Positions 139 to 20,328 of a DNA stretch of 64,000 nucleotides are shown piece after piece. How positions within the stretch are numbered: position 1 is the first letter of the stretch; every line of letters starts with the position of its first letter. The translations under genes were made by a program, and so were the position numbers. The stretch spans positions 1,302,001 through 1,366,000 of the forward strand of contig OX596341.1 in the NCBI GenBank assembly GCA_951394405.1. The letters run 5' to 3'. Below the pieces are notes generated by a model that did not search any database, was not told the DNA's origin, and worked only from the letters and a program-made list of their open reading frames with translations. Source of the stretch: Coprinellus micaceus (Eukaryota > Basidiomycota > Agaricomycetes > Agaricales > Psathyrellaceae).

Positions 139-1853
139 ATGGAATTTTACGATTCTGACGTTGTAATCCTGTGAGTTCAAACTTCAGAGACCGTTCCGTG
201 TGGCGATCCTCCTATGGACTGACCTTCTGTCGCAGTGTTACAGGACAAATCGGATCGGGAAGGAGTACCGTGCGTGGAGGTTGCTGCGTGCCTAACCACA
301 ACCTAAGTGATCTCCCCTAGTTCATTAACTCCTTGCTCCCTCCTGCAGCGCAGAGGATGGCGGTTGGAATGAGCCTCGCCGCGTGCACTTCTGATATAAC
401 ATGTTCCATCGTCGATTGGAAGGATCGTCCAAGGTCGTCGGCACCGTGTTGGAATAACCGGCTAGTGCTGGTTGATACCCCAGGGTTTGATAACGAGGAG
501 AAACGAGACCGTGGCGTCATTGATCAGATTAAATTCTGGCTTCGTAAATCGTGGGTCAAAAGCACCCTTATACTAGGCTTCGATATTCACTCGCAATTTA
601 CAGCTATCCTGCTGGCAGACCACGGGGAGGTGCGATATACATGCGTGATAGCAAGGCCCCGGCCAGCGACGCTTCCATTCTGTGGGAGAGTAAAGTCTTG
701 GGTTTCCTAAAGTCAGCCATGCGAGGGGAGTTGTGTTTTGTGGTGACCAAAGCTGAAGAGATTCCCGAGCTGCAAAGGTCGCCGGTAAGGCAGTGGCTGT
801 CCCGCCGTTGGGGGCGTCAAGTTTCACCTTCGCAGACGGAGATCTATGTAGTTGAAGCCCAAGATCACGTCAAGACGTGCGCTGGTGGGCAGGATGTGAG
901 TCTCGTGTGCGGCCATAACGTCTGGAAGCCCGTGGAGTACTTGTTCGGTAGATCGGAGATGCAGCTCTTACACGACGACATGGTCCTACTGTGAGTGTAC
1001 TGCGGCCGTCCTTTTCCCCGCTCGAGGGTCATGAACTCAATCTCACAGCGTCACTGGGCTAACCGGTTCTGGGAAGAGTACAGTGAGTGCGTTTCCCTAC
1101 TCTGCCAGAGCAATTCGATATCATCCCCCTAGTTCGTAAATGCTCTCTGGAAAGAGCCTGCTCGTCACCAAATGAAGGTGGGCGAAAGAGATTCGCTCCT
1201 GCCCTGCACCGCGCAGCTCGACTACGCCATAATCGATCTCAAGACCGCCCCGGGCTACAACAAAGACTACCGCCTGGTCTTGGTAGATACTCCAGGGTTC
1301 GGAAACCCCGACAAACCGTTTATGAGCATTCTAGAGGAGATAGTAGCCTGGCTTCGGGAATCGTGCGGCCTCTCCTCACTCTCGAGCACTTATCTAACAG
1401 GGCTGACATTTGGTTTCCAGCTTCCCCGCAGGCAAGTGTCGTGGAGGCATCGTTTACCTCCACGATATAACCTTGGACCGGTTTCAGGCGCCTCCTGAGA
1501 TACAACCTTTAGGGGCGTCCCTTCAATGGGGAAGCCAGGACCTCCATGTCGTTACCACTAAATGGGGGCTCATTGTCAACACGGAGGAGAGGGAGAAATT
1601 AAAGCGGACGGTGAATATGTGCCTCGCACCGATCTCGGACGGCATCGAAGTGCACCACTGCTCAGCAGAAGAAGACAGTGTGGACATCATTAACAGAATT
1701 CTCCCCGAGCTAGAGAAAGGTTCCGGATTCGTGTTTCGCCCTAAGCCCGCCCACAAATCGAGTTTTGAGCCCTCCCGCAGGAGCTATGAGGCGAGCATAT
1801 CCGCCTTGATCAAGTTGATGATTGCCTTGCTCCGCGTGTCAGGCAGTTCGTAA
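139..1853 (+). CDS. Two-domain P-loop GTPase (modules 1 and 2 fused)
   Basis: Seven exons: 139-170, 236-269, 321-550, 604-990, 1049-1082, 1133-1362, 1421-1853; they join in frame to 459 residues. Each half has a P-loop, a Thr/Cys-rich G2 region, DTPGF (G3) and a G4-like segment. Module 1 reads GQIGSGRST, with Arg replacing the Walker A Lys, and has TKAE where the others have TKW. Module 2 has canonical GLTGSGKST and TTKW. The first half ends in DDMVLL, and the donor at 991 joins it directly to the P-loop exon of module 2, so the halves form one chain. The chain ends in a hydrophobic amphipathic stretch. The family is the basidiomycete AIG1/Toc34-like G-domain group, judged by motif pattern. 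Role unknown; membrane-linked GTPase signalling or defence is inference. The start is the first ATG before the conserved DVVIL strand. Confidence 0.75.
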
Positions 1854-2310
1854 CGTTACAACTCACATGTATTGACCCCTTAAGTACTGTGGAGACCACA
1901 CATGTCGGTATGTAATTTGTACCCTCCCTTGTCGGATTGTGGTCCTGGATATCAATGCGTACGATTACGCCCGAGGGAAATGGAATAAGCGCGCAGGAGT
2001 TGGCTCGTTGACCTCGTTTAAACCCAGAGAGGGCCCTGTTCGAATCTCGACGCGAATATGACTACGCTTCGGGGCCAGAAGTTCCCGGCATTGATGTTCC
2101 AAAAGTCTCAAAGGCTGAAATAGCAAGTACTGGGCGAGAGAAGGAGTAATACATATGGTGCTGCGGCACCGCGGGGTCTGGATGGGTCGCAGAGGAACGG
2201 TCGCATATCTATTTAAAATATGATCGTCGACGAGTGGTCGCAAAGAAGAAGCATCAGAGACCGTTGCGTCTCAATAGTTAAGGGTCAATTGTGGCCCGCG
2301 CCCTCCCCAA
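1854..2310. other. Intergenic, convergent gene ends
   Basis: This stretch separates the end of the first two-domain GTPase gene from the end of the minus-strand DUF6535 gene. I see no open coding structure with splice support, and no RNA gene. Confidence 0.5.
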
Positions 2311-4603
2311 TTATGAAGTAAACGGAGTATCAGAGCGGAACCCATGAGATGGAGATGGATCATGTTCCCTCTCATCCGGAGAACCCAAACCCGTTGTGGT
2401 ACGGAAATCGGCTGAGCTAGCAGAATCTTTGGGCGTAGCAAAGGGTTGAAACCTCTCCCATCGAATGAATCGCCAAAGTGGCAAACTCTTAGATGTTCTA
2501 CCCACATCTCGGGTGTGATAGACCGCCTCGACCGATCGGCGAAGTGAGTCTGTGACAGGGACTCCTGAATCTAACAGGAGGAAGTAGATGAAAGGGCGGA
2601 CTTGGTAGGTGAAATCGGAGTTGGAGGATTGGCGATTCAATCCCTCGAGGAGCTCTTCACAACGTGAACCCTCGCAGCCATATGTTAAGATCCGAACTGC
2701 GGCTCGCAGAAACCGAGCGACGTATTGGTCGTGGGTGTCCAGCGAATCTTGCTGGCCAAGGATGGATTTAGATCCCGCTATACGGCCGAGGAATTGGTCG
2801 AGTACTTTGCGAACGCGACACTGCACTTCTAAAAGAGTCGAGGTCAGCGTCTTGGTTATCGGGACGACAGCCAGATCATTTACCTTCTAGGTCGCCTCCT
2901 GTGATCTCATTGTCCACAATGACTTCAGCGACAAATTGGATAGGGAGTGTTTGCGGGGGCATATAACCCTCTGCTGTCTTGTACGGAGTAGATACTTCCC
3001 GACCATACATCCATTCGGTTATATGAACGCAGCTTCGAAGGGCTCGGCGTCCGACCTCGAACGGTAGGCGATCGAAGCCGTCTGTTCGAGAGCACAGACG
3101 AAGTGCAGCATCAGAGACGAGTAGATCAAAGTCATCATTCAGGTCCACCACCGTGCCGTGAGGAACCCCAAACGGCAGGGGGTGCGCCGTCGAAAGGCGC
3201 TTGAAGAATCGCCCATAACACGTCCGGAGCCCGACCTCGGTGGCTTCATTCACCGCGAGAGGAACGTCGTTCGATTTGAGTACCATTTCGATGCAGCTGT
3301 CCAGCGCAGCTACCGTCCTCAAGTCTGCTAGCTCAGCGTTCTTCATGTCGAGAAGACCTTGAACGCTGTCATAGAGCGGGACGGGGCGTTTAGGAAGTTT
3401 TGTTGTATCCCGTGGGCCTAAGGATATATAGTCGGAGTCCCGCTGGAACAACCAAGCAATCCCATGCTCCAACCAACTGTCGTTCCGCTGGCTACGGAAG
3501 AGGATCCCAGTCGCACGCGGGAATGTGTGGGGATCCTTCCCCTCTTTGAAGTCCCTGGCGTGTGTAGACAACAAGCCACGGGAATCAAGCTTCGGCCATT
3601 TTCGGGATCCCCCGAACACTGGGGCGAGGGTGTTGACGACAAGGGACACGAGACAGTGGAAGACCCAGGCTTGTGGCGCTTTGTAAGGGCATGGTGAGCG
3701 GGGTTTGGCGACATTTCGAGGTAAAAAAAGGGAAAGGGCCTGGAAGGTTGGCAAAACCGTCGTGGAAAGCAGGAAACACAGAGTGATCGCTACGACCACA
3801 GCGACGTATATGCAGACAGTGCGGTTCAGGATCCACAACAGCTTCGTCAAGCCAAAGAGAAATAGGACGACGGCCGTCTGGAGAATGAGGCAGAGCAAGG
3901 TAAACACCTCTGGGACAAACCATGCGTCCAAAGCCTCCACCTGCATGTGATGGAGAGAGAAGGCAATCTGAGGCTCGAGACCAACATGATTTCGTTGATG
4001 CTCTCTCAACCATTGGAGGGAGATGGTGCCGATAAGCACAGTGACGAGACTAAGGACGAGGCTGAGGAACCACAGGGTGTTGATGAGGGTGGCAGCGCCG
4101 TCAGGCAGGGAGAGTGCGTCCGTGGATAGTTCTCGGGCATCCTGCTCTCCCATTTTGATTAGGAGGCGAGTGAGCAGAATTTCGACCGGATCTTTCCGAA
4201 GCGACTTGTATGATTCGATGATGAAAGCCGTGACGACAGCGGAAAACAGGCCTGCCTGATCGCCAGGGTCAAGAGGGCACGGTGGGCAATTGTAGGAGGA
4301 CGAGAAACTGACAAATATCAGGACATTCTGGACCTCGTCCTTCCACACTTCGCATCTAGCGTTGTCCTTCTCCAGAAGTGGCGTCAAAAGGCGAGTCCAA
4401 GGATCATCGATTGCCGTTGGGCGGGCGTGCCCATTGGGATCTGGAGTCTTATCAGAGTCGGCAGCCTATGAAGACGAGTCGCGGTCAAATTCAGCATCAT
4501 ACGTTCGTAGATCTGGAGGGAGAGTGTATGCACGCACTCGCCTCAGCTCTGGTATGCTATTGGTTTGTCCCTCTTGCGGTGGTTCTTGAGCAGGTGGCCC
4601 CAT
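2311..4603 (-). CDS. DUF6535 domain membrane protein
   Basis: Four exons on the minus strand: 4538-4603, 4313-4465, 2884-4255, 2311-2828, in frame for 702 residues. A 72-nt intron (4466-4537, gtgcgt...tag) removes what would otherwise be an in-frame TAG. A 57-nt intron (4256-4312) is open in frame but, once removed, restores the family signature NVLIF-AGLFSAVVTAF. The N-terminal block contains PWTRLLTPLLEK and the AGLFSAVVTAFIIESY segment typical of DUF6535. It is followed by about four hydrophobic segments, including one around LINTLWFLSLVLSLVTVLIG, then a long C-terminal region without recognised motifs. The function of the family is unknown; an integral membrane location follows from the hydrophobic segments. 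It diverges from the GTPase gene at 5163 across about 560 nt, so shared control is possible but unproven. Confidence 0.85.
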
Positions 4604-5162
4604 GGTGTTCGGTTTCAGTGAAGCGATACGATACGGACTCGAACAAACGCACTATATCCCTTTTATAACGGGAGAGACAGGCCGGGGACGCGTGCATTCC
4701 GTCGAGGGTTCGGAGTTGATGTGCGGCCTGAACGTTGGGCCGCTTTTGCCTGTGAGATGAGGTGGTGTAAATTAAGCGCCCAAGGTTACCCACCAAATAT
4801 GAACATCCGCCGAGGCCCGAACCCGTAAATCCCAACAGATACTTTGGAGTAGTTTCGCGGCAGGCATGAGGCCAGGGCAAGCTGTGGACCCCTGACAGTT
4901 CAAACCGATCGGCAGGGCCCGAATATCCTGCAACACGGCGACCACCAGCTGGAGGCGAATACGCCTGCAGGACTGTGCCTGGCTGTGGCACTGCCAATGT
5001 AGCACCTGGAGACGTGGGGATAGCGCACCATGACGCCAACGTGTCAGATGGTGCCCAGCACTATCATGTTAGTATACAATCCTCCCGTCAACTTAGAAGA
5101 ACCCTCAACGTTCGACGAAGACGAAACCTTTTCCCGCCTACACCTGGCACTCGCATTGGGCA
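4604..5162. promoter_or_regulatory. Divergent intergenic region, DUF6535 / GTPase
   Basis: The two flanking genes start outward from this 559-nt stretch, so it should hold both promoters. Open frames here (for example minus 4557-5039) have no domain or splice support. No specific element was identified. Confidence 0.4.
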
Positions 5163-6085
5163 ATGAGCCAAAGAGGAGGCCGGCTGAATTCCAAATCTGG
5201 GACCTTGATTTTGTGAGTAGAATTGTACCTTCGGCCCCCCTGACCGAACTGACGCACCGATGGAAGGTTATTGGGACAAAGCGGAGCAGGGAAGAGTCAT
5301 GTACGCACCCTATGCTACCAAAATTCCTGGCACGAGGGCTGATCCGTCCGCTCTAGTTCATCAATACCGTTGCTGGACAAGAACTGGCGAGAGTTTGCGA
5401 TGGTCAGGGAAGCGGCGACCTTGAAGTCCAGCATCATATCATAGACAGTCGCTCATGCCCTGGATCGAAATTGATATTCGTCGACACTCCGGGATGGGAC
5501 AATCTATATATCACGGACGACAAAATTATGAAGAAGATTGCCCAATGGCTGGAGGAACAGTGAGCGGGGCGTTACAATTCGAGTCAACGACCGCCCCTAA
5601 CCTCGTTGCACAGGTGCGACAAAGATGTGAGAGTGGGCGGTATTCTCTTCCTCCACGATATCACACAAGACCGCCCGAATGTTCCCCCTACGTGGCCGGT
5701 GAGGTACCTCTCTATCGCCGTGACAAGACGCTTGCTCCTAGCGACAGGAAAATGGGACCTCTACCGGTCTTGGGGAAACGGCCCCGAGAAGGAGAGGCAA
5801 AGGGAAATGGAGTTGGCTGCGAAAGGCGCGTGGCGGGAGCTCCTCCAAAATGGGGCACAGCTCTGCCGTTTCGAGAACGACGAAGGCTCTGCGTGGGAGG
5901 TCCTGAACGAGCTTTTGAAGTCAGACCCCTTGGACTTGAGCACCCTGGTGAAGGGGCTAAATCAGATGGGGGCCGCCATTGAGAAGGCTCTCCATCCTCC
6001 TTCCAAAGGAGGTCGCGACCGTGGACCAAATGGAGAGCAAGGATTTCTGGGATGGATACGTGCATTGATGGGATGCCTGGGCTGA
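5163..6085 (+). CDS. Single-domain P-loop GTPase (module 3, GKSH/TGKWD type)
   Basis: Four exons: 5163-5212, 5267-5300, 5357-5559, 5614-6085, giving 252 residues. The 34-nt second exon encodes LLGQSGAGKSH, an intact Walker A. G3 reads DTPGW, followed by the conserved GGILFLHDIT segment and a G4-like TGKWD. The C-terminus is FLGWIRALMGCLG, which can form an amphipathic helix. Together with module 4 it forms a sublineage: both have a SGxLIL strand before the P-loop, His after GKS, and TGKWD instead of TKW. The start ATG at 5163 is the only nearby ATG in the frame required by the phase-2 junction. As elsewhere in the array, function is unknown; GTP binding follows from the motifs. Confidence 0.75.
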
Positions 6086-7099
6086 GTAACTCTTCTCGTC
6101 AAATCAAGTTATCGTGGTTCTAAAACTAATCCTCCCAAAATCTTCTCCCGTCGCTGGTCTGTGAAGCAGCTTGGGGCTTCTTGCTATGGTCGTATGGGGT
6201 AAATGCGTTGCCGGAGGTTGATTCGGTGCTGAAGGACTTGTTTGATTGTTGCTCCTTGACGCTAGCAATAATAGTCGATACGACGCAGCGCGGTTTGGTC
6301 ACTTTTACATACCTTCCCCTGGAGATTTCGAGCTGAAACTTGGCATATGCGTAATATATTATTACTTGGTTATCCACCGCGTGCAGCTGTGTTCATTCCT
6401 TGTGACTAAGGGGCACACTCTCGGAGAGGCGAATAGCGCCTGCAAGGGGCTTCTCGCGCCAGCTGCACTCATCGGGGACTTGGCCTTATGGCCTTATGGC
6501 CTCGTTTCAAGTGTTGTCGCCTTGACTGAGACCCTCGTACCTTGCTCATACCCTCCCGCTTTCGGGTGATCACCTACAAGCTACCGCGACGCGGAAAAAT
6601 CATGGTGTGAGGCTGATTGGAGGTTTTTGCCACTTCTCGATCGCTATTTCGGCTCGTCCCGGAGGTGCTGCTGCATTTTCAGAGCCGGCGCCTATTTTGG
6701 TGGCGAACCAACCTTCACTCGTCAGCGGGCAACACTTCCTAAATGCGTGTCATCTAGATCCGAAACCCTTTATGAGCGCAGTGCCCCACTGGAAGGGACA
6801 TGAAAATGAAACCGTCCGTCCAAGAAAACCACCGTTCGGCATGCCTGCGGTGTGAAAGGGAACACGAGGTAGACACGACTGCTTCGTGTCGGTCCCTATC
6901 CATCGATAAAGGGCAACATGGCGCAGGAGGTGGGACGGCACGGTGCTTATGACGTTTAAGCCTTGAGGCTACTGCACGTCACGTCGTGGCTGGATGTCCT
7001 GGACTCTGTGGTGATGTTGTCATCTTGTCTTGAGGATTGACATCGTTCTGCTGCAACAAGAAAAGTTCTTTAGTATCACCTCGCCTTGACGGGTCGTTA
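6086..7099. other. Intergenic, no gene recognised
   Basis: About 1 kb between modules 3 and 4. Frames at 6246-6569 and 6607-6855 are open but show no recognisable motif or splice pattern. The region presumably holds the promoter of the GTPase at 7100. Confidence 0.4.
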
Positions 7100-8260
7100 A
7101 TGACATCTCACCCTGCTAAACCTTCCACGAAAGGGCCTATGACGGTGCCCGAACCTCAAACCCCTGTAAGCCCAGTGTTCGGGGGCGACGCCCTGAAGCC
7201 GACCTCAGGGATCCTAATATTGTGAGTGGGACGGTGCCCAGCTGGAAACCTGGGAGTCTAACTGACGAGCCGATTTATTCCCACGTTGGCATCGACAAGG
7301 TTAATGGGACAAACGGGGGCGGGGAAGAGTCATGTACGCAGTCTGTCATCCGCGCCCGGGGGAAAGACGTGGTTTGCTCCAGTTCAGCTCACTTTCACGC
7401 ATCCCAGTTCGTAAACAGCGCTGCTAGAGCCAACAAGGCGCCCGTCCGCGATGCCCTGTCAAATAGTGACTTCGCTGTCCGAAGCTATATCGTCGATAAC
7501 CCTCGCATGAAGGACCCTAGAAATGTCCGCTCAAAAGTCGTGCTCGTGGACACCCCTGGGCTTAACAACGTAAACCGCAGCGACACCGAGATTATTAAAT
7601 CGATCGCTGCATGGCTGAACGACAAGTGAGCACCTTCTCCCTCTGGAACTGTGAGCTGGCACCTACCTTTCGGACGACCCCAGTTGTAACGATGATGATC
7701 TGGTCGGGGGAATCATTTTCCTTCACGATATTGCCGAAGACCGAGCCACCGTATATGCGGATAAACACGCTTGGCCAGTGAGGTATTTCGACTCGCCGGC
7801 CTTGTTGCAGCACATTTTCCTCACCACGGGAAAATGGGACCTGGCCTTTGTTCAGAGCAACAAGAAGAGATACGACGACCGGGAGAAAGACTTGAAAGAG
7901 ATGATGGCATGGAGGAGGCTGCTGAACAGAGGAGCAACGTCGTGTCAGTATGAAGGAGACTACGAATCTGCGTGGAAGGTGATTGGCAAGGTTCTGGAGA
8001 TGGATGCGCTGAGAGCACAATTGCTGAGGAAGGAATTCAACACGATACAAGGCAAGCTGCCGGGATTGCAACGACCGAAGCCGGGGTTTTGGAGAAAGTT
8101 CAGGAACCTATTTTCGAGGGTGAGTGTTTCGAACTGGGCAAGTCCCGCATTCATGACAATGTCTTCCAGTCCCCGAATTGAGGAGAAGCAAATCCTATCC
8201 CAAGACCTGTATTGTTATCGTGGCTTACGCTCTCTTCATCCAAGCCAGTGTCTGGATTAG
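7100..8260 (+). CDS. Single-domain P-loop GTPase (module 4, GKSH/TGKWD type)
   Basis: Four exons: 7100-7221, 7300-7333, 7408-7625, 7684-8260, giving 316 residues. The 34-nt P-loop exon encodes LMGQTGAGKSH. Read in the uncorrected frame it looks frameshifted (GGGEES), but the spliced frame is intact. G3 is DTPGL rather than DTPGF or DTPGW. The GGIIFLHDIAEDR segment and TGKWD follow. The bases after GKSH, including the donor gtacgca, match module 3 almost exactly, so these two arose by a recent duplication or are under strong constraint. The tail holds KPGFWRKFRNLFSRV, a basic amphipathic stretch, and then about 40 more residues that may reflect an unrecognised terminal intron. The N-terminal extension is rich in Pro and Thr. 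Confidence 0.7.
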
Positions 8261-8320
8261 CGTTAGCCTTATTTAAGACTCTACGACGAAACGCGCACAT
8301 GCTTAATATATAACTTATGA

Positions 8321-9648
8321 TCAAGCAATGGCCTTCATAATCTTCTCGTAAATGGTGAAAACGATACCCCCGCTCAGCTAGAGGGCCTTTAGGTATGTAT
8401 ATTGAGAAGAGAAGCATTGGGGGAAAACGCACCACGAGCCGAGCCAGGCGAGGTGTCGTCCCCGTCCAGAACCGCAACAGGCCCTCTTCAGTGAATATGC
8501 GGTAGGCGCAATGGAACGAATTCCGATATTGAACCCTCGCATCTAGAGATTGCATTCTCGTCTTGATAACACTGATGGGGGGTTAGCATATTTATCATAT
8601 GGTGGAGGGGCGACTCGTACTCGAGAGGCATAGTGGTGTACACTGTAACGAGGCCGGCGATACCTCCAATACCAAACGTGATGGCACTGGGCAAGGGCTG
8701 GCCGGGCCTTGCAGTCCCTTGGACAAGCTGCTTCAGGGTAGCATACGTGGTGAAGCGAACGGCGGAGTTAGCTCCTTGGCGCATCATCTAGAAGGGCGGT
8801 CGGCATTCGTGACGGGGGGATGCGTTGTGCAGGCGTACCACGGGGAAAAGTCCACGGTATATACCGAGGATACCCTCCTGCTTGATAATAGAGGTTGTTC
8901 CATGTATCAAGCCACGGTATTGAGGGTTAGGTCGCTTAGCGTCGTCAATGAGCTTGGTCCTGTTGGATGTTCAATTCAACACTGTGTTTGGGCGGTGGAG
9001 GGTCCGTACTTGATTGTCTCCGAAGGTGTCACTGCGAAGATGGCTTCCGTCATACCAGCACCCAAACCAGCTGCAACACCGTTAGTTCACGGGCGCACTG
9101 ACCAGTAGCGGAATTGTACCAAGAAGACTCCTGGGAGCACTGATCTTTCCCTGAAGGACTGTTAACCACGCAAGGAAAGACCCTCACAAACACCGTACCT
9201 GTGAGTCGGATAACTGCTGCTTGAAGTAGTCGTAGGTCAAGAAACGGACTCCCGCCTTCGCTGAGTTGCCTATTACAAGGGCCATGCATCCGGAGTAGAG
9301 ACCAGTGACACCGTGCGTCCTAATGGTATCCTTGATGATGGCAATGGGACCCTCTTTCTACAGCGAGGTCGTCAGGACCGCTTCAACACCTTTTGAAGTC
9401 AACGACGCACCTTTCCCCCGAACTGAGAGCGGGTTTTAACATATTCCGTCGGATACGTGACAAATCTGCCATTCTAGAGCTCATGGGCACTACAACCATC
9501 GGTCTTAGGGTCTTCACGTACGCTTCGATGGCTCCTGCGGTTGCACCAGCAAAACTAGCGCTCGAGGTGAGTCCCATCTTTCGCGGTGAAGTGATCGAAC
9601 ACCTTACAGCGAATGTAATGGCTTATCTTTCTTGGCCGCGACAGACAT
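8321..9648 (-). CDS. CTP1: Mitochondrial tricarboxylate (citrate) transport protein
   Basis: Ten exons on the minus strand: 9608-9648, 9522-9554, 9411-9465, 9199-9357, 9120-9150, 9010-9070, 8839-8959, 8621-8787, 8433-8571, 8321-8377. They join in frame to 287 residues, the usual length of SLC25 carriers. The three carrier repeats each show the Px[DE]xx[KR] signature: PTEYVK, PSETIK and PLDVIK. Family-specific segments include AGATAGAIEAFVTYPTEYVK, GLYSGCMALVIGNSAKAGVRF, MMRQGANSAVRFTTY and RFWTGTTPRLARLV, all characteristic of yeast Ctp1 and human SLC25A1. It exchanges citrate for malate or other tricarboxylates across the inner mitochondrial membrane and supplies cytosolic acetyl-CoA. It is divergent from HEM4 across about 360 nt. 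No damage is seen; this is a housekeeping gene inside a rapidly evolving array. Confidence 0.95.
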
Positions 9649-10007
9649 CGTGCCGGAGTCTAGTAGGTCAGGAAGTGTTACCCGTCGAGAAAGTTGAGAG
9701 TCAAGCACGAAAAGCCGGGTGCCATCACGAGGTCGACATTTCGGGGTTATTCGGTAGACCAGTCACTAGCGACCAAGTCATTTGGAAGGCCGAACGCCTA
9801 CATACCGGCCAATATTCAGTCCTCAGAGTGGTATACGCGGGATAAAGGCAGGACGTCACTCGGGCATGCACCACGGTGGAGGTCATCGAGCAAATGGGTT
9901 GACCAAGACGACCATAATCTCAACCCTAAATTGGGGTTGAGATGAACCCACACTCCCAATTCCTCACGTCTTCTTTCCCAGCAACCAACTTGCAGCATTC
10001 AATTCCA
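9649..10007. promoter_or_regulatory. Shared CTP1/HEM4 divergent promoter with inverted repeat
   Basis: This 359-nt stretch separates the two divergent starts. At 9917-9926 and 9934-9943 lies a perfect 10-bp inverted repeat (atctcaaccc / gggttgagat) around a 7-nt spacer. It lies 65 nt upstream of the preferred HEM4 ATG and could be a dimeric factor site or a 5'-leader hairpin. Its function is inferred from position only. Confidence 0.45.
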
Positions 10008-11000
10008 ATGCTTCGCCCAATCCTCCTTTTCAAAGAGCCTGCGGCCGACTCACACTACGAGACCACTCTCAAAGAAAAGGGATACATCGCCAAATGTGTT
10101 CCAGTTCTCCATACAGTCCACATCAACACCGACGGCCTCGCCGAATGCTTGTCAAAAGCAAAGCAAGTGGGAATTCATGGGATTATCGTGACCAGTAAAC
10201 GCTCCTGTGAAAGCCTCGGGGAAGCGGTGACGCGATTATGCTCTGCTTCAGGGATTACTACGGCACCGGAGGCATCTCTAGGTCGGTGAACCCCTCTTTC
10301 GTTGCATCTCGTCAGGAACACACCTCAATTCACGCTATTATGCGGGGCACACTGCGTTGCAGCATATCTCTCTACTATCCCGTTCTATGTGGTTGGGGAG
10401 GCCACGGCAGCTGCTGTGCAAGAAATTCAAGTCCGGTTCAAGGGCAACGGGTTCAGTTGCGCACTGATCAGAGGGGAACAGTCTGGCACAGGGGAGCAGC
10501 TGGGGAGATTCATCACTGACCATTATCACGGGCACGGGGTGGAGAAGCTGCTATACTTGACGGGGGACAAGAACCGCGACACCGTGCCCTCGATCTTGGC
10601 CGAGAAGAGCATCCCATTCCAGCCCTTGCAAGTGTATGAAACGCGCCAAAGGCCAGATTTCGAGGTACTTTTGGACGAGGTGGTTGATTCGTTATACGCT
10701 GAGTCGACGCCCGGTATGTTCTCGTCACCAGCCCCTCCCCAGATTCCCCGCTTATCTGCCCTAGAACCGTGGTGGACTGTCTTCTTCGCACCGTCAACGG
10801 CGAAGTTTGCGGCGCCATCTGCACGAAAATGTCTTTCCTCCCGAAACATATCCTATCGAATAGCAACAATAGGTCCTGTCACGACGGCTGCCATTGAAAA
10901 GACCGGGGGATCCGCCGTCCGAGTAACCGCCCCGAAACCAGACGCTCTGTATTTGGCTGAGGCCATCCGAACTTACGATGACGATCGCGATGAAAGGTAA
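10008..11000 (+). CDS. HEM4: Uroporphyrinogen-III synthase
   Basis: Three exons: 10008-10281, 10363-10713, 10765-11000, in frame for 286 residues. The enzyme cyclises hydroxymethylbilane to uroporphyrinogen III in cytosolic haem synthesis. Visible family segments are ILLFKEP near the N-terminus, GIIVTSKRSCESL, PFYVVGEATAAAV, KLLYLTGDKNRDT, PLQVYETR, WWTVFFAPSTAKF and RIATIGPVTTAAI, in the order expected for the two-lobed HEM4 fold. The 51-nt second intron is open in frame but has gtatgt/ctag ends and interrupts the TP-EPWW segment. The first intron (10282-10362) was chosen because it is the only tested pair that keeps the frame into YLSTIPFYVVG; its gtcggt donor is weak. An in-frame ATG at 9942 would add 22 residues. 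Confidence 0.92.
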
Positions 11001-11475
11001 TAGGCGCCGGAGCAGCTAAAGTAAGCCATTTGCCTCGACTTCGGAACTTTGAGAAACACACTCAAACTGGGGAGCGCAGGTTGTTCACATGTATTCACAT
11101 TGCCGGATCTTGAACCTTGGAGCTTGAGAACCCGGCGATAAATACTCATCGGCGGTTCTCCCGAGAACCCACCCGTTTCAACATAACTCGATCGCGGCCC
11201 AGTGATATGGTGCCAAGTCAGCACACTCACCAGAGCCGTGGACGTGAATGAGGGTTCATCTAAACTGTCGCTCAGCGCGGAGCTTGTGCCCTACGCAATC
11301 AGCGTACAGCCTAATGCGAGGCTGGCTCAAGCACCCCCGAATTGGATGTTGAGAACGATCTGATTGCGTTGGTGCAACGAGCCTGAATCGTGGCGTCAAT
11401 ATCTACCCCATCGTCGCTCGCTAAGGTTCCCCAATTCCTAGAGGTCGAAGGCTCTATACCAGCCTGTCATCGGGG
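11001..11475. other. Intergenic, no gene recognised
   Basis: About 475 nt between HEM4 and the second fused GTPase. Short frames on both strands lack motifs. Presumably terminator and promoter sequence. Confidence 0.4.
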
Positions 11476-13580
11476 ATGCCTAGCCATGATCACAGACTCG
11501 ATCCCGCGTTGCAAGACGGCGGGCCTACAGACATTGTCATCTTGTGAGCGCCTGGGTTCGAATCTATTGGCGGAACGTCTAATCACGCCCTTGTCATCGC
11601 AGCGTTATGGGACCTACAGGCGCAGGGAAGAGCTCTGTAAGTGTCCTTTGATTGTCCTGCTCGATCGGAGCGCTGATGCCGAAGGGTGGTGAAGTTCATC
11701 AACCTCATCCTCGAGCACATCGGGGACAAAAGCCAGCCTGTCAAGGTTGGGCACCAACTGGTGCCTTGTACCCGAGAACTTCAAACCGTCATCGTCAAGG
11801 ACCAGATTGAAGATCAAGATGCCCACTTTCTGTCTCTCAGTAACGAGTATCGCATGGTAGTTGTCGACACACCAGGTTTCGACGATACTGTGGGCTTGGA
11901 CTATGAGGTTCTGAAGGGGATTGCCGAGTGGTATCAAGAATCGTAAGCACGATTGAATCTCCCATGGTATGAACGGACCTTACTGACGCTCCCCAGTTGC
12001 CGACGCAAGATGATCCTTGGAGGTGTGATATACTTGCACGACATCTCTCAAGATCGGTTCACCGGAACCGCCCGGCGGAACCTGAGCACGTTCACTAACC
12101 TGTGTAATGACGCAGTCCTTGACAAGGTGGTTCTTTTAACGACCAAGTGGAGTCGGGAAAGCGGTCGTGACTTCAACACGAGGGAACGCGAGCTCAAGGA
12201 AGTTCATTGGAAAGATCTAGTCGTTGGACCAAAGGGGGGCGCCTCCGTCATGAGACTGTCTGACCACCAGGGGAGCGAAGGGCAGAGCGGATGGCGAGTG
12301 ATTCGGCATATCCTACGCAAATTGGACCGCCGCCTGCTTCAGAAGACTCTCGACGAGGCGTTTCAAACCCAAGACACTCGAGCAAGAAGGAGGTCCACCC
12401 TGGAGACGGAGGCGGAGAGAGGGCTCCGAATCCGGATTCAGACTGCTTTGACCATTCGGGAAGAGATTGTAGCGTTGGAAGCACAGGCAGTAGGCGGGGA
12501 CAAGGACGATGCAATCAAAGAGAAGGAGGGAAAGTTGAATGAAATGCACCAGGCCATAGTGACGGCTTGGAAGGGGATCCAAAAGCCCTCACGGGCGATG
12601 CGCAAGTCTAGGTCTCTTTCCAGGTTGTTGGACGGTCCCCTGGTCAGCCGGGTAGCGCCCACACCCCCTCAGTCCGAGCCAAAGCTAGACGACATCGTGC
12701 TTTTGTAAGTGCTTTGAATGCTATCCCCCAAATCTAGGCTCTCATAAAGCTCGTAACAGGATCGCCGGAGCATCCGGGTCGGGCAGGAGTACTGTAAGTT
12801 ACACTATCGTTGATCATATCGGTGGTAGGCAGCAGGCTGATGATCCGAACCCCAGTTCATTAATGCGTTGCTTCGCGAGGTTGGGGGAGAGGAGCTGGAA
12901 GTTGGGGACAGCGGATCCTTGAGCTCTTGCACCAAAGAGGTGCAATGCTCAATGATCGATCTCTCGCAGTCTCCGAAATCTAAGAAGCAGTGTCGCATAT
13001 TCATGGTAGACACCCCTGGGTTCAACGACTGCGATCCGAGGAAAACCGACTCTGCTATTTTGCAAACTATTTTGGAATGGCTCCAGCGCTGGTATGTGAG
13101 CCTGGACGAACAACGAAGTAACCCAACTGATGCGCCAAGTGTCCTAGGTTGCACCCGAATACATCGTGTCGAGGTGGCATCCTATACCTCCAAGACATCA
13201 GCGTATCGCCATTACCACCCCTCGTGAGCGTCAATCGAGGCGTTTTAGGGAAGAACTTCGATTCCGACGTCTTCAAGCAGCTCGGCTTCGTAACGACAAA
13301 ATGGAAATACGCAGAAAACGGGGAGAAAACTCACTCGACATTCGAGGAGCAACTGGCGGATATACGGGCAGCTGGATCCGGGCTTTACAGCTTCAAGAAA
13401 GATCAGGACGCTTGGTCGATTCTGGAAGACTTTCTTCCGCGTCTGGAGAGCGGCAGAGACATACACGTTGGGGCGATTCTCGACGCCTTTCGGAGCGTGT
13501 CACAGCGGCACCACCTGAGTTTGGGGATAGACTCCTTCCTGAGCCGGTTTTTCGCCCTCCTCGAACGTCTGCTTGTCTGA
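11476..13580 (+). CDS. Two-domain P-loop GTPase (modules 5 and 6 fused)
   Basis: Seven exons: 11476-11543, 11603-11636, 11695-11942, 11997-12704, 12760-12793, 12856-13091, 13148-13580, all in frame for 586 residues. Module 5 is canonical: GPTGAGKSS, PCT in the G2 region, DTPGF, GGVIYLHDIS and TTKW. It carries a long helical extension rich in Glu, Lys and Arg, with ETEAERGLR and a likely coiled coil. It ends in DDIVLL, whose donor at 12705 leads straight to the P-loop exon of module 6. Module 6 reads GASGSGRST, again Arg for the Walker A Lys, with DTPGF and TTKW retained. The chain ends in a hydrophobic, basic amphipathic helix (FLSRFFALLERLLV). Lys/Arg order is the reverse of the other two fusions. 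Splice phases at the fusion point equal those inside each module, which supports a genuine fusion. Confidence 0.78.
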
Positions 13581-14414
13581 TAGTCCACATTTTGGACGAC
13601 GAATACTACTCCATTTTTATCTCCATGAATAACCTTTGCGCCTATCGTATGCGTCGCTTCCAGTTTACGCGAAGAGCCTAAGAGAGCTCCGACTGGCACT
13701 ATCGATCCTGCCGTAGGTGGTCACCGCCCAAGAAGGCCGCTTCTGGCTGCCTCGGCCAAATGGACTGGCTGTGAGAACATGGGGCGGCGGGGAGTTCCTT
13801 TTCCTTGCAGCCATTCATGTATGTACTGTATGCCCACCTCTCGTGGCACCACCGGCAATCGGAAGGTCTTGGGCCTGACTTCCCCCCGCTTGCTCCCCCA
13901 TCACGGACACGCCTGAAGCACAGCAGCTTCGCCGTGTGTTTTCTGGTTGGTTGCAACCGCTTTCCCTTTCAGCGAAAGTAAACATATTGCTTCCTATCTC
14001 GAACCGATGCAGGTATACTTACGTCGAAAAGTTCCATAAACCAAATCAACGTCTTTCAAGTTTCAGCCCAGTGCACGTTTAGCTACTAAACTACCCCAAA
14101 ATTGGAGCAAAGAATAGTTTGGCGAAGATGACCCGAGTTTCTGGCGAGGCACATACCTGGAAAGTCGTAAACCCTGGGGACGCTGGGGCAGTCCAAACAG
14201 GTCACTTCAACTTGGGTAGCGGGTCTAGGGGATAGATGGTGGCAACCCGTGGCATGAGAACTCGGGCGTGTCACGGTGAGACCCAGACCGCACGGGCGAA
14301 CTTTGTTCGTGACCTTAGACTCCCCATACGCTTGCCTTCGGGGAACGCTCCACGACCCATCCCTGATACGTCTCCTGTGCTACCTCCCGAAGGACCGGCG
14401 TGACTGAATTAGCT
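13581..14414. other. Intergenic, no gene recognised
   Basis: About 830 nt between fused gene 11476-13580 and the single-domain gene at 14415. The frames seen are short and unsupported. No DIVIL-type exon is present, so modules 6 and 7 are not fused. Confidence 0.4.
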
Positions 14415-15329
14415 ATGTCCGGTAGCAAGGACCTTGTGATCCTGTAAGCTCAATCATTCCCTCCAGGCCATGCCTGATGAGAGTTTGTAGTGTCATGGGG
14501 ACTACGGGGGCGGGAAAGAGTTCAGTAGGTACTTTGGGCTTTGGGCGCGGTACTGACGCTTACATTTGTTGCTGGAAGTTTGTCAACCTCCTCCTCAGTG
14601 CTGCTGGGAACCCACGACCGGAGGTCAAAGTTGGCCATGGTTTGCAACCCTGTACAACTCAACTCGAATCCGTCATCATCGAGGGCCAAATCACGCGTCA
14701 AGGTGTCCGTTTCAAGAATCTCACACAGGAGCATCGCATTGTAATTGTCGACACCCCCGGTTTCGAGGGGGTTAAGGAGACCGACACCAGGATCTTATGC
14801 GATATTGCGACGTGGCTGAAGAAAAGGTCAGCACAGTTGGCGTCGTTCATAATGGTACAAGAAGTGGAAGGGAGAAGCTAATGGACCCAGATTCAAAAAG
14901 CAGGCGATTTTTGGAGGGATTATATACCTTCACGATATCAGCGAAGATCGCTTTCCCGGTTCGGCGAAGCAGAACTTGAAGAGTTTGAAGCGCTTGTACG
15001 GGGACGCGGCTCTTGACAAGGTTGTCTTGGTCACGAGCAAATGGTCTCTGCAGGAGCCCCGAAGATCGGAGGAAAAAGAGCAACAGTTAAAGGAGAAATA
15101 TTGGGAGACACTGATTTCGCCGAAGGAGGGGGACGGTGCGCATGTCATGCGACTGTTGAACCCCAAGGGAGAGGGAGTAGGTGCGTGGGCAGTGGTGTGC
15201 CACATTCTGGTCCAGTTGGACAATAGGCTAAGCCAGGAAACCCTTGACATCGTTCGTCAGAACCAAGGCACCTTCCTGGGCTCCCTCCTCAGGGGGGTAT
15301 TTGGCCGATCTAAGGGTCGCACAAAGTAA
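14415..15329 (+). CDS. Single-domain P-loop GTPase (module 7)
   Basis: Four exons: 14415-14443, 14491-14524, 14579-14826, 14891-15329, giving 249 residues. A nine-residue leader, MSGSKDLVI, is followed by the 34-nt exon encoding VMGTTGAGKSS. Next come QPCT (G2 region), VIVDTPGF (G3), GGIIYLHDIS and TSKW (G4-like). The protein is closest to modules 5 and 9 in motif wording but lacks their long coiled-coil insert. It ends in SFLGSLLRGVFGRSKGRTK, an amphipathic then basic tail. The acceptor before exon 4 was set at 14890 because it alone keeps the frame. A decayed fragment of adenylosuccinate lyase starts 540 nt downstream, matching the layout behind module 9. Confidence 0.75.
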
Positions 15330-15393
15330 CATCTTACTAGACACTCAGGCTCATCACCTCACACTAGCAATGCTACAACCCACCCTGCCATTA

Positions 15394-15460
15394 GGTTGGT
15401 CGTGCGCCAAATCGCCGCTTTCACGGAGAAGTCGACTTTCAGTCAAGCAGCAACTGGGCG
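15394..15460. repeat. Diverged direct repeat R1 (partner at 16453)
   Basis: Shares a degraded run with 16453-16530: gtygtgcgcc, an A-rich gap, gccg, T run, then gtcgactt and caag. A shorter match (ctcgagaacgat) follows each copy, near 15570 and 16675. The two copies flank the lyase fragment. Aligned by eye only. Confidence 0.4.
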
Positions 15461-15868
15461 TTGAACTTCCTTAAGTTGAAGCAACCGGCCTGCTGTTCGA
15501 AATAAGCGTCAGCGGGATGATAACGCGAGTCATTGGGACAAGGGCCTTTCACCCAGCTTATGACAGACCCTCGAGAACGATAACCAGACCACAGTGAATG
15601 TCAGCGGCGCCTCTGAGAGAGGGAGAGCGAGAGTAGATCAGGAACCCCAAAGCCGCAGGTTAGGCGGGCACGCATGAATGTCTGAATCTGGTCAGCCTGG
15701 TGACCATTCGGTCGAGCTCTTTGACCTTGCGATTATGTACCCCGGAGATGCCCAGGACGTTTGCGTGGCCGCCCCTCAAAATTCCTGCATGAATTCCGGT
15801 CATGTCAAACCCGAAAGCCTAACCACAAACACGTCCTTTTAGCCGACTGTCGCAAGTTTATTCGCACC

Positions 15869-16330
15869 TTACACGGAGAGCTCGACTTTCTGACTCGTGG
15901 CAATCGCGTCCCAGAGCTCCTTGTCAGCAAGGGCAGGTTGTACCAGCTGTTGAAGAAACCATCGACCTGCTTCGGGGCCCTGCCGACTAAGATGGCAGGG
16001 GACAGCAAATGATTGATGTCAGCGACGATAGGCTCGAGACAAGGATCAGACCTGACGCGACCAACTTGAAGCAGGTCCTTCTCGAGGCCCGAGGTCCCTT
16101 CATGCGAGGGGACCTAAACAGCGACCGCATGTCAATCGCATATCTCGGACGGGTTTACATTCGTTGTTCGCGCGGTTCTCTTTTAAATTGTGCACCTCCT
16201 TCTGGCTCACCATAAATGGCAAGTCCTGGGAGGTTCCGCAAGTGACGACCCCAGGGGTGAGGACGTCAATCTTCAACCCAGATCATCCAGAAGTGTCAAT
16301 GTCCGCCATAGTCCGGCTGGCGGTACCCTT
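15869..16330 (-). pseudogene. Decayed 3' fragment of adenylosuccinate lyase
   Basis: The stretch aligns by eye with the 3' end of the intact lyase gene starting at 20836, beginning at the equivalent of its stop codon. Matching runs include ttacacgga, ccttgtc.gcaagggcagg, tcgacctgct, tgacctgacgcga and tctcgag. In translation, VGRAPKQVDGF corresponds to [11 protein letters not shown] of the intact enzyme. The frame then breaks within about 30 codons and no continuous ORF remains. Similarity fades around 16260-16330, the equivalent of intact positions near 21290-21360. The rest of the gene is missing. It lies 540 nt behind GTPase module 7, while the intact gene lies 508 nt behind module 9, consistent with one duplicated block. 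Confidence 0.8.
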
Positions 16331-16452
16331 GGTGGAGTCCGGAGGATACGGGGACGCCCCTTGAGTCCCTTCGGCGGGGGCCTAATTTGCAGGCCCAAAG
16401 GGCCGCCAGCTGGTAACACAAGCAGTCACCTCACTCGTGAATTCATTGTGTC

Positions 16453-16530
16453 GTTTGGTTGTGCGCCCAACAGCCGTTTTTGCGAACAGGTCAAGAAGAG
16501 GTCGACTTCTTGCCAAGTAGTAACCGTATA
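16453..16530. repeat. Diverged direct repeat R2 (partner at 15394)
   Basis: The second copy of the repeat described at 15394-15460. It has the same orientation and lies on the far side of the lyase fragment, about 1.06 kb away. Confidence 0.4.
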
Positions 16531-16740
16531 TCAAACGGAGCTAGAAGGACCGAGCAGGTAACCGAGGCCGACAATAAGGTGTTGACGATCGACTCGAAGT
16601 AGGCCCTAGGGAAATGGCCGAGCGGGTCGCCATCGAGCCAGGAGACCTCAACCCGGTCGTCGGTTTACGGCAGAGTCTCGAGAACGATCCCTCGTTTGCC
16701 AAGCTGGTCAAGTAGGTATACTCGGTGAGTTTGTATATGT

Positions 16741-17075
16741 ACCGCGTGCAAGAACCTCATCTATGTAGTCTCGGAGAAACCTTTGAATATTTTTGGCCTT
16801 GGGAGAGCGGAAGACGTCCCGGGCAACCATGTGGGCGGTGTCTTAAAGAGACGCGAGAGTGAGGGTATGCCAGGGAATCGAATATGGCGGGATGGATAGG
16901 GATCTGCGTTCGGGTTTGACTGGCTTGGTGGCCAGGGTGGCGCAGGGGGCTTGGTTGAATGAGTGGGCTGAAGGCGACCGAACAGCAAAAGGCGTGTGGA
17001 GAAATGGCGCCAAGAGGACAGCTGGGCGCAAAGGATCCGTCGGGTGCATCTTGGGTTGCCGCTGAGCTGAGGATG
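16741..17075 (-). pseudogene. Possible remnant of a mitochondrial-protein gene
   Basis: On the minus strand an ATG near 17075 opens an Arg/Ser-rich segment without acidic residues (RRILCAQLSSWRHFSTR), like a mitochondrial targeting peptide. The frame runs to LSRLFKTPP. A coding-like segment MVARDVFRSPKAKN then IQRFLRDYIDEVLA continues in another frame, as if one base were lost near 16850. No family is recognised. An intact gene with an unrecognised intron is the alternative. Confidence 0.25.
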
Positions 17076-18352
17076 AAGCATTGGCAGTGGCGGCAGATCA
17101 AACCCGTGGGACTCGTCTTTGAAGGCCACCCGCCGCCTGCCTGCCGCCCACGAGTCACCAGCGAATCTTAACTCAACCTCGATCCAATTGCTTTCAACTG
17201 TCTTGTCTGTTATCGTACCTCCGCTCGTCTCGTCAAAAGGCGGGCAACTGCGCTATGGGGGTCCCCCATCATGTGCTTTTCTCTGCCTCAGCAAATGCTT
17301 GGCCTCCCGCCACTTCCCTCCAGGATCCCCCTCTTTTCCCCTCCTTCAGAGTATCTGGCCGCATGTACACACCGCCCGGCTGTGAAGGATCCGAGTCTTG
17401 GGAAAAGTTAGACCAATTTTGTCCCAGTTCGATGGTTATGGGCCTGGGGCCTGCACGGTATCCTTCACTATTCACAACGCCCTAGTCCGTCGGACACGCT
17501 TTTCTTTTCACAACATCGTCTCCGAGATGTTACTATAGGCCTTTTGACTTCGTTTCCCAATGAAATTGGCTGGCGACCTGAGGTCAAGGAAGCCCCGACA
17601 CGCTGAACACGGCTGGAGGGATCCAAGCCTACGGAGAGGGCGTGACAGAATCGAGGAACGTCAGGTGAGCAGCGTGCCCGTCTTCCCCGCGGCAACGCTC
17701 CCTTCACTTTGGCCCTTCCGGTTTCTAGACTCGAGACGGTGTGCTTCCTCAATCCTAGCCGATTACCTCACTACTTACGTATCGTTCGAGCCCATGTAGG
17801 CTCAGGTCCGATCCTAAAACCCCCAAATTCGTCGCGACCCCCTCATGCATTTTTCATTAATTTCGGCCATTTTCGTCGCATGACAGATGGGACCTCTGGG
17901 AAGACCACATTCGTCGCATCTGACCTAAAATCATCCAAATTAAGAGCCCCTCATCTCTTACCAAGATAGAGGCCCCACGCAGCGTCTGGCGCCTAAAGTT
18001 TCCTAGAAACAAAGAGGGAAGGACCAGAAACGAGGACCCGTGCCGGGGCCCGTGGCCCTCTGGCAGGGCTAGGGCAAGGGACCAGGATTGTACATCGCTG
18101 GTGATAGGGTCAAATTCCGGCACATATGGATCGAACATTGGCCCAATTTCCGGTCATACACCGACCTCGGACTCCCCCCTTTTTTTGGGTCGTTTTCGTC
18201 GCACCAGGATCGGATCTCTGTAAGCATATAAGTCCTGCCTATCTGGCTTCGCCACCTTTTACCGATATTAATCGTCCCACCACAACAGACTATAACTCAC
18301 TCCCTTCGAATTCAACCCACCGTTGTATCGTATTTCCATCAGTTCAACGAGA
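17076..18352. other. Intergenic, low-complexity, no gene recognised
   Basis: No supported gene. The motif ttttcgtcgca occurs twice (near 17870 and 18190) in pyrimidine-rich sequence. The last 100 nt form the leader of the third fused GTPase gene. Confidence 0.35.
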
Positions 18353-20328
18353 ATGTCTCGACGTACTTTGGAATCGTTCCAAAACGACATCGTGATTCTG
18401 TGAGTCTGATCGATCCCATGTGCCTCATTGGGCTCATCGCTGTGGCCGCTGCTACAGGGTTCTGGGAGCGACGGGCTCCGGAAGGAGTTCAGTAAGTGGT
18501 GGTAACCTCGAATGGAGCGACTACTTGAACCCTCCGGGTAGTTCATCAACGACTACCTTTCCACGATCAAGCATGCCACAAAGCTAGATGTTGGTTCTGC
18601 CAATCAGCTGACCGCTGTGACCTCGGACATTCGACCCATTATCGTTGACAAGCGTACATGCCAGTTCCCTCCAGGCCTTCCATCGGAAGCGAGACTCGTC
18701 ATCGTAGATACCCCTGGTTTCAATCGCCCCGACCACAGTGATGGCAAACTCATCGACGAGATCGCGTTGTGGTTTCGCAACTCGTACGTCCGCTCAGCAC
18801 ACAGAGGCTAAGTCTAATTCACAGTGCACCATAGAAAGGCTACCCTTGGGGGAGTCATCTACCTCTACAACATTTCAGAGCAACCACCCTCCTATCGTTC
18901 CCTCAGCGTCAAAGTCAATAAGCTCGACCCCAAGCTCCCCACAGCTTTGAGAAAGACTGTGATGGTGATCTCCAAATGGGAGCACTTGGAAGGGGATCGG
19001 TTTCCACGCTGGCGACAAGAGGTGTTGAGCGATTGGAGCACGTCCATTCGTCATAACGGGATAGGTGTGCCTGTTGAAGACTGGCAGTCGCCTGCAGGCG
19101 GGAAGGGGAATGCCAAAGATATTATCGAGGCAGGGCTACGAAGGGCTGTGTTAAGTCAGCTAATGGACCAGCAGCCCGCTGACGACCCTGCTTTGCATGA
19201 CGCCCGCCCGACGGACATTGTGATCCCGTAAGTTCTATACCTCCCTCAAGCCGGGAGATGCCTGATGACATTCGATAGTGTCATAGGGCCCACAGGGGCG
19301 GGAAAGAGTACCGTGAGTGTCTAGAGCACGCCGAACACGAATGTAAACGCTGATATACGAACGAAGTTCGCCAATCTCCTTCTCGAAGCTGTCGACTACC
19401 CGCGACAGCGGATCAAGGCCGGTGGGCAAGACTGCACTTATGAGTTGGAGTCGGTCGTCATCGAGGCGCAGGCCACCCGGGGGAAGGCCCCCGCCGTTAA
19501 TCGTAGCGATCAGTATCGGATCGTGATTGTCGATACCCCCGGCTTCGACGACACCACCGCGTCTGACTTCGAGATATTGAAGCGCATTGCAAGGTGGCTA
19601 GAGGAGTCGTAAGTGCAAATCCCCACATATGCTGAAGTGGGAGGAAACGCCTCACGATCCATCTAGATTCCGTCGGAATATGATCCTCGGGGGGGGTGAT
19701 CTACCTTCACGACATTTCCCAGGATCGATTCTCTAGGACGGCTCGAAGGAACTTGGATATGTTCAGCCAACTATGCGGAGACGCGGCTCTCGACAAGGCG
19801 GTCCTCGTCACGAGCAAGTGGAGTCGACAGGGAGATCGTAACTTTGTAACAAGGGAAAATGAGCTGAAAACGGTTCACTGGAAGGAAATGCTTCATCCTC
19901 CAAAGGGCGAGGTTGGTGCAAGGGTGATGCGGCTGGGCGGCCCACGCAGACGAGAAGACCCCAACAGAACAGAGGGCGATGATGCGTGGGCGGTAATACA
20001 TGGGATTCTCGGTCGGTTGGACCGGCGGCTTGCTGAGGGGGACGTACAGAAAACCCTCGCTGAAGTCCTCCAGATCCAGGACGAGCTGGTCAAGAGGAGG
20101 GGGATTCCAGAGACGGAAGCGGCCAAGGAGTTACGGGACCAGCTACAGGCCGCTTTACGCGTTCAAGAGGAGATGCCGGCGTTGGAGGCGCAGGCAGCGG
20201 ATGGAGATGAGGTGGCAGAGGCAAAGATCAGGGAGAAGGAAGATGAGCTACGCAGGATGCATACCGCCATCCAACAGAACAGGGCTTCGTTTTTCGCACG
20301 CTTTCGTCGTTTCCTCGGGTTTCGATGA
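18353..20328 (+). CDS. Two-domain P-loop GTPase (modules 8 and 9 fused), probably disrupted
   Basis: Exons by homology: 18353-18399, 18458-18491, 18542-18783, 18825-19227, 19279-19312, 19367-19608, 19667-20328. Module 8 reads GATGSGRSS (Arg for the Walker A Lys), with DTPGF and SKW. It ends TDIVIP, whose donor at 19228 joins the P-loop exon of module 9, GPTGAGKST. Module 9 has DTPGF, YLHDIS, TSKW, a helical extension like that of module 5 (PALEAQAADGDE) and a C-terminal FFARFRRFLGFR. Two frame breaks exist. No GT-AG pair tested keeps frame between exons 3 and 4 of module 8. A run of eight G (19689-19696) adds one base before YLHDIS in module 9. Either this copy is decaying or the runs are sequencing errors. 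The total is 2 nt over a multiple of three. Confidence 0.65.

Follow-up and report, generated by a model that had tools for sequence, protein, structure and literature searches.

An arginine-bearing subfamily of predicted septin/AIG1-like GTPases in Coprinellus micaceus, with members joined in frame to lysine-bearing modules

The region studied here, referred to as the window, is a stretch of 64,000 nucleotides from the basidiomycete Coprinellus micaceus (assembly GCA_951394405.1, contig OX596341.1, positions 1,302,001 to 1,366,000 of the forward strand), written C8:1302001-1366000 in the contig and position notation used below. It lies in a genome of 50.3 Mb on 17 contigs, the single genome on which everything reported here rests. 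The window carries three genes that each encode two P-loop GTPase modules in one chain (fusions A, C and E, with modules numbered 1 and 2) and three single-domain genes of the same family (B1, B2 and D), and they are part of a large local expansion of septin/AIG1-like GTPases. In every fusion one module has lysine (Lys) at the Walker A Lys position and the other has arginine (Arg). It is suggested here that Arg is very probably the trait of a subfamily and not a product of fusion. The explanation as a whole, in which this subfamily supplies Arg-type pseudo-GTPase partners of Lys GTPases that are sometimes covalently paired with them, has in our judgement about an even chance of being correct.

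Walker A residues across the genome

All nine P-loops of the window read back with the residues given to them in a first-pass annotation made from the letters of the window, including Lys in each of the three single-domain genes. The arrangement it described for the fusions, Arg+Lys in A, Lys+Arg in C and Arg+Lys in E, also stands as regards the residues, and A and C are open chains, although the frame of module E2 is broken by a tract of eight G. Protein searches of the whole genome made 70 P-loops of the family readable; as these searches rank the best candidates only, this number is a lower bound. Sixty-four P-loops were recognised by a pattern together with a downstream G3 exon (49 Lys, 11 Arg, two serine (Ser), one methionine (Met) and one threonine (Thr)), the pattern being one that assumes a mini-exon of 34 nucleotides (nt) and would miss members without it. 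Six more were read by hand, of which C8:1036089 has Arg and C8:1203398, C12:1978306, C4:3733813, C8:1468247 and C11:1272696 have Lys. The count excludes C12:1973728, which shows the pattern and no G3 exon, and a broken P-loop on C11 near 1833.8 kb.

A fourth fusion, F, adjoins the left edge of the window (C8:1299456-1297647, minus strand). Its modules F1 (IFGLVGAGKSS, Lys) and F2 (VMGQTGAGRST, Arg) have one open frame between them, and with it the observation that each fused pair combines one Arg and one Lys extends to all four fusions found. The eight fused modules are accordingly four Lys and four Arg, while the other 62, which are to be understood as not shown to be fused (18 Lys and three Ser/Thr modules among them being known only as pieces of 0.55-1.3 kb), comprise 50 Lys, eight Arg, two Ser, one Met and one Thr.

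The eight solo Arg genes are C8:1293871, C8:2534311, C8:2536101, C8:2540102, C8:2543038, C8:2548567, C8:1036089 and C6:433633. A second in-frame module is absent from all eight, six of them judged by an open-frame test and two by reading of the translations; a motif that the open-frame test flagged upstream of C8:2543038 lies within a closed frame of 47 amino acids. No further family P-loop was found by a motif scan that took in at least 1 kb on both sides of these genes on the same strand; its sensitivity was incomplete, as the G3 that C8:2543038 is known to have escaped its G3 pattern. Among these genes C8:1036089 (L080) is a B-type gene with an Arg P-loop and VETPG as its G3, and C6:433633 (L079) is a divergent Arg gene on another contig. 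Confinement of Arg to fused chains, as the first-pass annotation had it, is therefore true inside the window and fails in the genome. The annotation had also tied Arg to fusion and had named homologues whose Lys or Arg status is unrelated to fusion as evidence to the contrary; the solo Arg genes are such evidence, from the window's own genome. Arg as a product of fusion was rejected on the strength of these eight genes.

Arginine as a probable subfamily trait

The relationship between the modules was estimated from a tree of 66 modules (all 70 less four Lys rows that had been read by hand), from which the P-loop columns had been removed, made by a quick method with no bootstrap. One clade of 16 modules, with support of 99 in the Shimodaira-Hasegawa-like approximate likelihood-ratio test (SH-aLRT), holds ten of the 12 Arg modules, all three Ser/Thr modules and three Lys modules. 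The remainder of the G1-G3 core is kept in this subfamily, which has both solo and fused members: seven of the solo Arg modules stand in it, as do all the fused Arg modules but E1. Outside the clade there are 50 rows, of which 47 have Lys, two Arg and one Met. Within it, Arg is found in three of four fused and seven of 12 solo modules (p = 1.0), and the excess of Arg in fused modules over the whole family would appear to reflect subfamily membership.

The number of independent fusions has to be considered here. Fusions C and F may, to judge by the identity of C2 with F2 (57%) and of C1 with F1 (41%), compared with 29-32% between F1 and each of A1, A2, C2, E1 and F2, derive from one fusion event that was duplicated later. 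F1 is, however, also 41% identical to E2 over 93 aligned residues, and the tree does not group F1 with C1, so that three or four fusion events have to be allowed. Taking the Arg frequency as 10/16 and treating E1 as a member of the clade, the probability that every fusion would hold a single Arg is about 0.11 for four events and about 0.18 for three, and the one-Arg-per-fusion partition thus needs no special cause.

Several observations weigh against so simple an assignment to subfamily. When all modules are taken together, Arg occurs in 4/8 fused and 8/62 other modules (p = 0.025), and the comparison within the clade is weak, having only four fused modules. The association of Arg with fusion, which the first-pass annotation had proposed to examine across Agaricomycete proteomes, is in this one genome seen over all modules and not within the Arg-rich clade. 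One of the three Lys members of the clade, C8:2563916, is sister to the Arg gene C8:2534311, and the presence of Lys members indicates that the switch is not fixed. E1 and C8:1036089, both Arg, fall outside the clade, from which it follows that Arg had more than one origin or spread repeatedly. The long branches of E1 and C6:433633 make their placement unsure. The occurrence of Arg in a B-type gene and in a divergent gene on another contig points to an old residue or to one with more than a single origin.

It could be argued instead that Arg arises with fusion and that each fused chain is a purpose-built heterodimer of an active and a degenerate GTPase. The finding of exactly one Arg and one Lys in four of four fusions and the overall excess of Arg in fused modules are what such an origin would lead one to expect. 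We nevertheless consider it very improbable in view of the solo Arg genes, the lack of any difference between fused and solo modules in the Arg-rich clade, and the probability with which the partition would arise by chance.

A second possibility is that Lys and Arg are nearly interchangeable, the Arg modules still being working GTPases or the residue being of minor importance, with no division of labour between modules. The sister genes C8:2563916 and C8:2534311 differ in this residue at 71% identity, and at least six changes of the Walker A residue are needed on the tree. Most Arg modules keep the G2 Thr and the G3 aspartate (Asp), and docking work cited in PMC10731463 reportedly found the Arg-bearing yeast septin Cdc11 able to bind both GTP and GDP. 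Against this, C2 and F2 have both held Arg to the point of synonymous saturation (proportion of synonymous differences, ps, 0.81), when the single transition AGG to AAG would give Lys, and outside the clade, where 47 of the 50 rows have Lys, the residue is not free. Interchangeability is a serious but unlikely alternative to Arg as a subfamily trait with a role of its own.

Three members of the Arg-rich clade have P-loops of another kind, with Ser at C8:1081579 (GTTGCGSST) and C8:1094471 (GRTGCGSST) and Thr at C8:1137365 (GRTGCGTST); their G3 is also altered (GDxPG). The Met module, C13:1142391 (GATGAGMST), is 88% identical to its Lys paralogue C13:1244534, with a ratio of nonsynonymous to synonymous substitution (dN/dS) of 0.70, a weaker sign of constraint than in the other pairs measured. 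A second array of the family lies at C12:1.96-2.23 Mb, where the P-loops that were read all have Lys, and where the middle glycine is mostly replaced by lysine or asparagine (GPTKAGKSS type). In this array three pairs of neighbouring genes on one strand, alike in make-up, were considered as Lys+Lys fusions and rejected; the first gene of each stops before the second starts.

Structure of the fused genes

The exon models of A, C, D and E were made by hand and those of B1 and B2 by a rule-based script. The features of the window are as follows.

139..1853, plus strand: fusion A, hand model with GT-AG introns, seven exons, a single open chain of 459 amino acids; A1 has Arg (GQIGSGRST) and A2 has Lys (GLTGSGKST)
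139-170, 236-269, 321-550, 604-990, 1049-1082, 1133-1362, 1421-1853, plus strand: exons of fusion A
236..269, plus strand: 34-nt mini-exon with the Arg P-loop of A1
1049..1082, plus strand: 34-nt mini-exon with the Lys P-loop of A2
5163..6085, plus strand: B1, single-domain, Lys (GQSGAGKSH), start codon picked by eye
7139..8260, plus strand: B2, single-domain, Lys (GQTGAGKSH), start picked by eye, 3' end taken from the open frame only
11476..13580, plus strand: fusion C, hand model, seven exons, a single open chain of 586 amino acids; C1 has Lys (GPTGAGKSS) and C2 has Arg (GASGSGRST)
11476-11543, 11603-11636, 11695-11942, 11997-12704, 12760-12793, 12856-13091, 13148-13580, plus strand: exons of fusion C
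12760..12793, plus strand: 34-nt mini-exon with the Arg P-loop of C2
14415..15329, plus strand: D, single-domain, Lys (GTTGAGKSS), hand model of four exons
18353..20328, plus strand: fusion E, hand model; E1 has Arg (GATGSGRSS) and E2 has Lys (GPTGAGKST), the frame of E2 being broken
18458..18491, plus strand: 34-nt mini-exon with the Arg P-loop of E1
19689..19696, plus strand: tract of eight G that shifts the frame of E2 in the hand model
2876-4465, minus strand: neighbouring gene for a DUF6535 protein
8488-8787, minus strand: piece of a mitochondrial carrier gene
10290-11000, plus strand: uroporphyrinogen-III synthase (HEM4)
21126-21830, minus strand: lyase of the adenylosuccinate lyase type

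The GTPase genes have as neighbours the DUF6535 protein, which is in keeping with an Agaricomycete origin, the mitochondrial-carrier piece, HEM4 and the lyase. In all nine modules of the window the P-loop stands alone on a mini-exon of 34 nt that begins in phase 2 and ends in phase 0, and in fusions A, C and E reading through the donor that precedes such a mini-exon leads to an immediate stop. The second module of each fusion begins with the segment that opens the solo genes, of the DIVIL or DIVIP type and ahead of the P-loop intron. Once spliced, A and C have no stop between their modules, and E1 continues in frame into the beginning of E2. The fused chains are two complete modules joined in frame.

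As sequenced, the chain of fusion E stops soon after the eight-G tract. The codons beyond the tract are conserved relative to a solo paralogue (dN/dS 0.35), which argues that the break is a sequencing error or is young. A splice that would restore the frame of E2 was sought by hand at two upstream acceptors, both of which run into a stop.

These structures bear on the possibility that no fused chain is in fact produced, either because the modules are separate genes or because the intron that lies between them is retained and uncouples them. Reading through the donor after the first module brings an instant stop in A, C and E, and E is broken in its second module, both of which would suit such uncoupling. 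It appears improbable, as GT-AG introns join the modules in frame, there is no stop between the modules of A, C, E or F, and the joined layout is common to C and F in spite of their high divergence.

Conservation and selection in the Arg modules

The first-pass annotation had held that the Arg copies are not simply decaying, pointing to the retention of DTPGF in both halves of the fusions, and the wider data agree. DTPG is present in nine of nine window modules. Seven of these have Thr in a column that we infer to be the position of the switch-I Thr, where B1 and B2 have Asp; a Lys P-loop by itself is for this reason no proof of activity, and B1 and B2 may be poor GTPases in spite of theirs. 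By eye, the putative switch-I Thr is present in 11 of 12 Arg modules and the G3 Asp in 11 of 12, C8:1036089 being the exception in both. The dN/dS was 0.37 for the Arg/Arg pair C8:2536101 and C8:2540102, 0.36 for the Arg/Lys pair C8:2534311 and C8:2563916, and 0.35 for another Arg/Arg pair, a distant one whose synonymous divergence (dS) is 1.75; two Lys/Lys pairs gave 0.15 and 0.35. Saturation affected four pairs, and no value could be computed for the Ser/Thr pair.

The Arg modules do not look as though they are decaying. That they are decaying duplicates would be in keeping with the Ser, Thr and Met modules and the broken copies (C11 near 1833.8 kb) in the same genome, and it is extremely improbable given the open frames and kept motifs of the Arg modules and the values of 0.36-0.37, which indicate purifying selection in the few measurable pairs. 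When C-terminal tails were scored against shuffled sequences as amphipathic helices that might serve as membrane anchors, two of 14 passed at 5%, those of C2 (15/500) and C8:1293871 (2/500).

Relationship to septins and other GTPases

A profile search of PDB with eight modules placed septins at the top, with a best E value of 1.2e-7, and the matches stop short of the septin unique element. In Pfam, with E values up to 0.1, Septin and MMR_HSR1 were matched by all eight whole modules and AIG1 by five (best E 2.2e-8). For A1, the module for which scores were available, the Septin score of 22.4 bits is below the gathering score of 26.2, MMR_HSR1 at 28.1 is above its cut-off of 21.9, and IIGP at 15.1 is below its gathering score of 24. 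Most modules have T[TS]KW as their G4 region, the G4 motif of septins proper being A/G-K/R-A-D. The modules are on these grounds termed septin/AIG1-like, or paraseptin, P-loop GTPases and would not be classed as septins proper.

The closest known parallel to the Arg P-loop is Cdc11. Its Arg (5ar1) aligns at the Walker A Lys, where 12 of our modules also have Arg. This Arg reportedly clashes with a phosphate in the crystal structure, and nucleotide binding by Cdc11 is disputed, docking having suggested that GTP and GDP can bind (PMC10731463). Cdc11 is a candidate pseudo-GTPase that pairs with Cdc12 across the G interface (PMC10731463, PMC8640212). Like Cdc11, the Arg modules are fungal, with a G domain of the septin class and Arg at the Walker A Lys. 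Cdc11 differs in being a separate, filament-building chain and a true septin with septin-specific elements, and there Arg belongs to one yeast gene where here it marks an entire subfamily. Cdc12 we take to be a Lys septin. The statement that Arg at this site normally cripples hydrolysis is too simple, as the dispute over Cdc11 concerns the binding of nucleotide.

The immunity-related GTPases (IRGs) offer a second comparison. They comprise a GKS (Lys) effector class and a GMS (Met) class by which it is held in check, tandem proteins of two modules also occur, and a zebrafish tandem IRG reportedly joins a canonical and a quasi-GTPase module in one chain (PMC1297648, PMC3810784). The fungal family resembles the IRGs in setting Walker A Lys modules beside deviant ones and in having in-frame tandem double-module proteins. 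Differences are that the IRGs are vertebrate, have Met in place of Arg and belong to the IIGP family; IRG helical domains are not seen here, and the PDB matches to IRGs span about 26-33 residues round the P-loop. Met at the Walker A Lys, as in the GMS class, occurs here in the one module C13:1142391.

The AIG1/GIMAP and TOC GTPases are described as paraseptins (PMC11238149). The fungal modules share with them the AIG1 match in five of eight modules and weak PDB matches to GIMAP7 and Toc34, and differ in the T[TS]KW of most G4 regions. GIMAP8 resembles the fusions in having several G domains per chain. We know of no Arg class among the AIG1/GIMAP/TOC GTPases.

The suggestion that the arrangement is undescribed in fungi has to be narrowed, Cdc11 being fungal, having the same Arg and pairing with a Lys septin. 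The fused Lys/Arg arrangement itself was the subject of no paper found in open-licence PMC text, by title and start of abstract, among the matches listed. This covered paraseptins, GTPase expansions in basidiomycetes, fungal fused pseudo-GTPases and the annotation names of such proteins, while no match was listed for AIG1 GTPases of fungi or for pseudo-GTPases with this substitution.

Possible roles of the Arg modules

We infer that Arg hinders GTP use. The Arg modules could be pseudo-GTPases that use nucleotide weakly or in an altered way and act as partners, each pairing by its G-domain face with a Lys module and setting the nucleotide state of that module. The precedent for this would be Cdc11 (GRS) with Cdc12, or the GMS IRGs that restrain GKS IRGs. 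Such pairing of Arg with Lys modules, put forward by analogy, is a possibility that we would place a little short of even. In the fusions, pairs that solo Arg and Lys proteins would otherwise form in trans may have been locked in. More tentative again is the proposal of a two-class paraseptin system, in which a dedicated Arg class governs Lys GTPases, the fusions are trans pairs made covalent, and the whole is a separately evolved counterpart of the GKS/GMS system of IRGs.

Natural Arg-for-Lys P-loops that have been kept over long divergence provide a direct means of finding out how a GTPase fold functions when its key lysine is missing. Partners are also pointed to by the fusions, which lead to the prediction that within this genome solo Arg proteins would bind solo Lys proteins. 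The parallel between septin pseudo-GTPases on the one hand and the Lys/Met split of IRGs on the other could thereby be tested within one fungal gene family.

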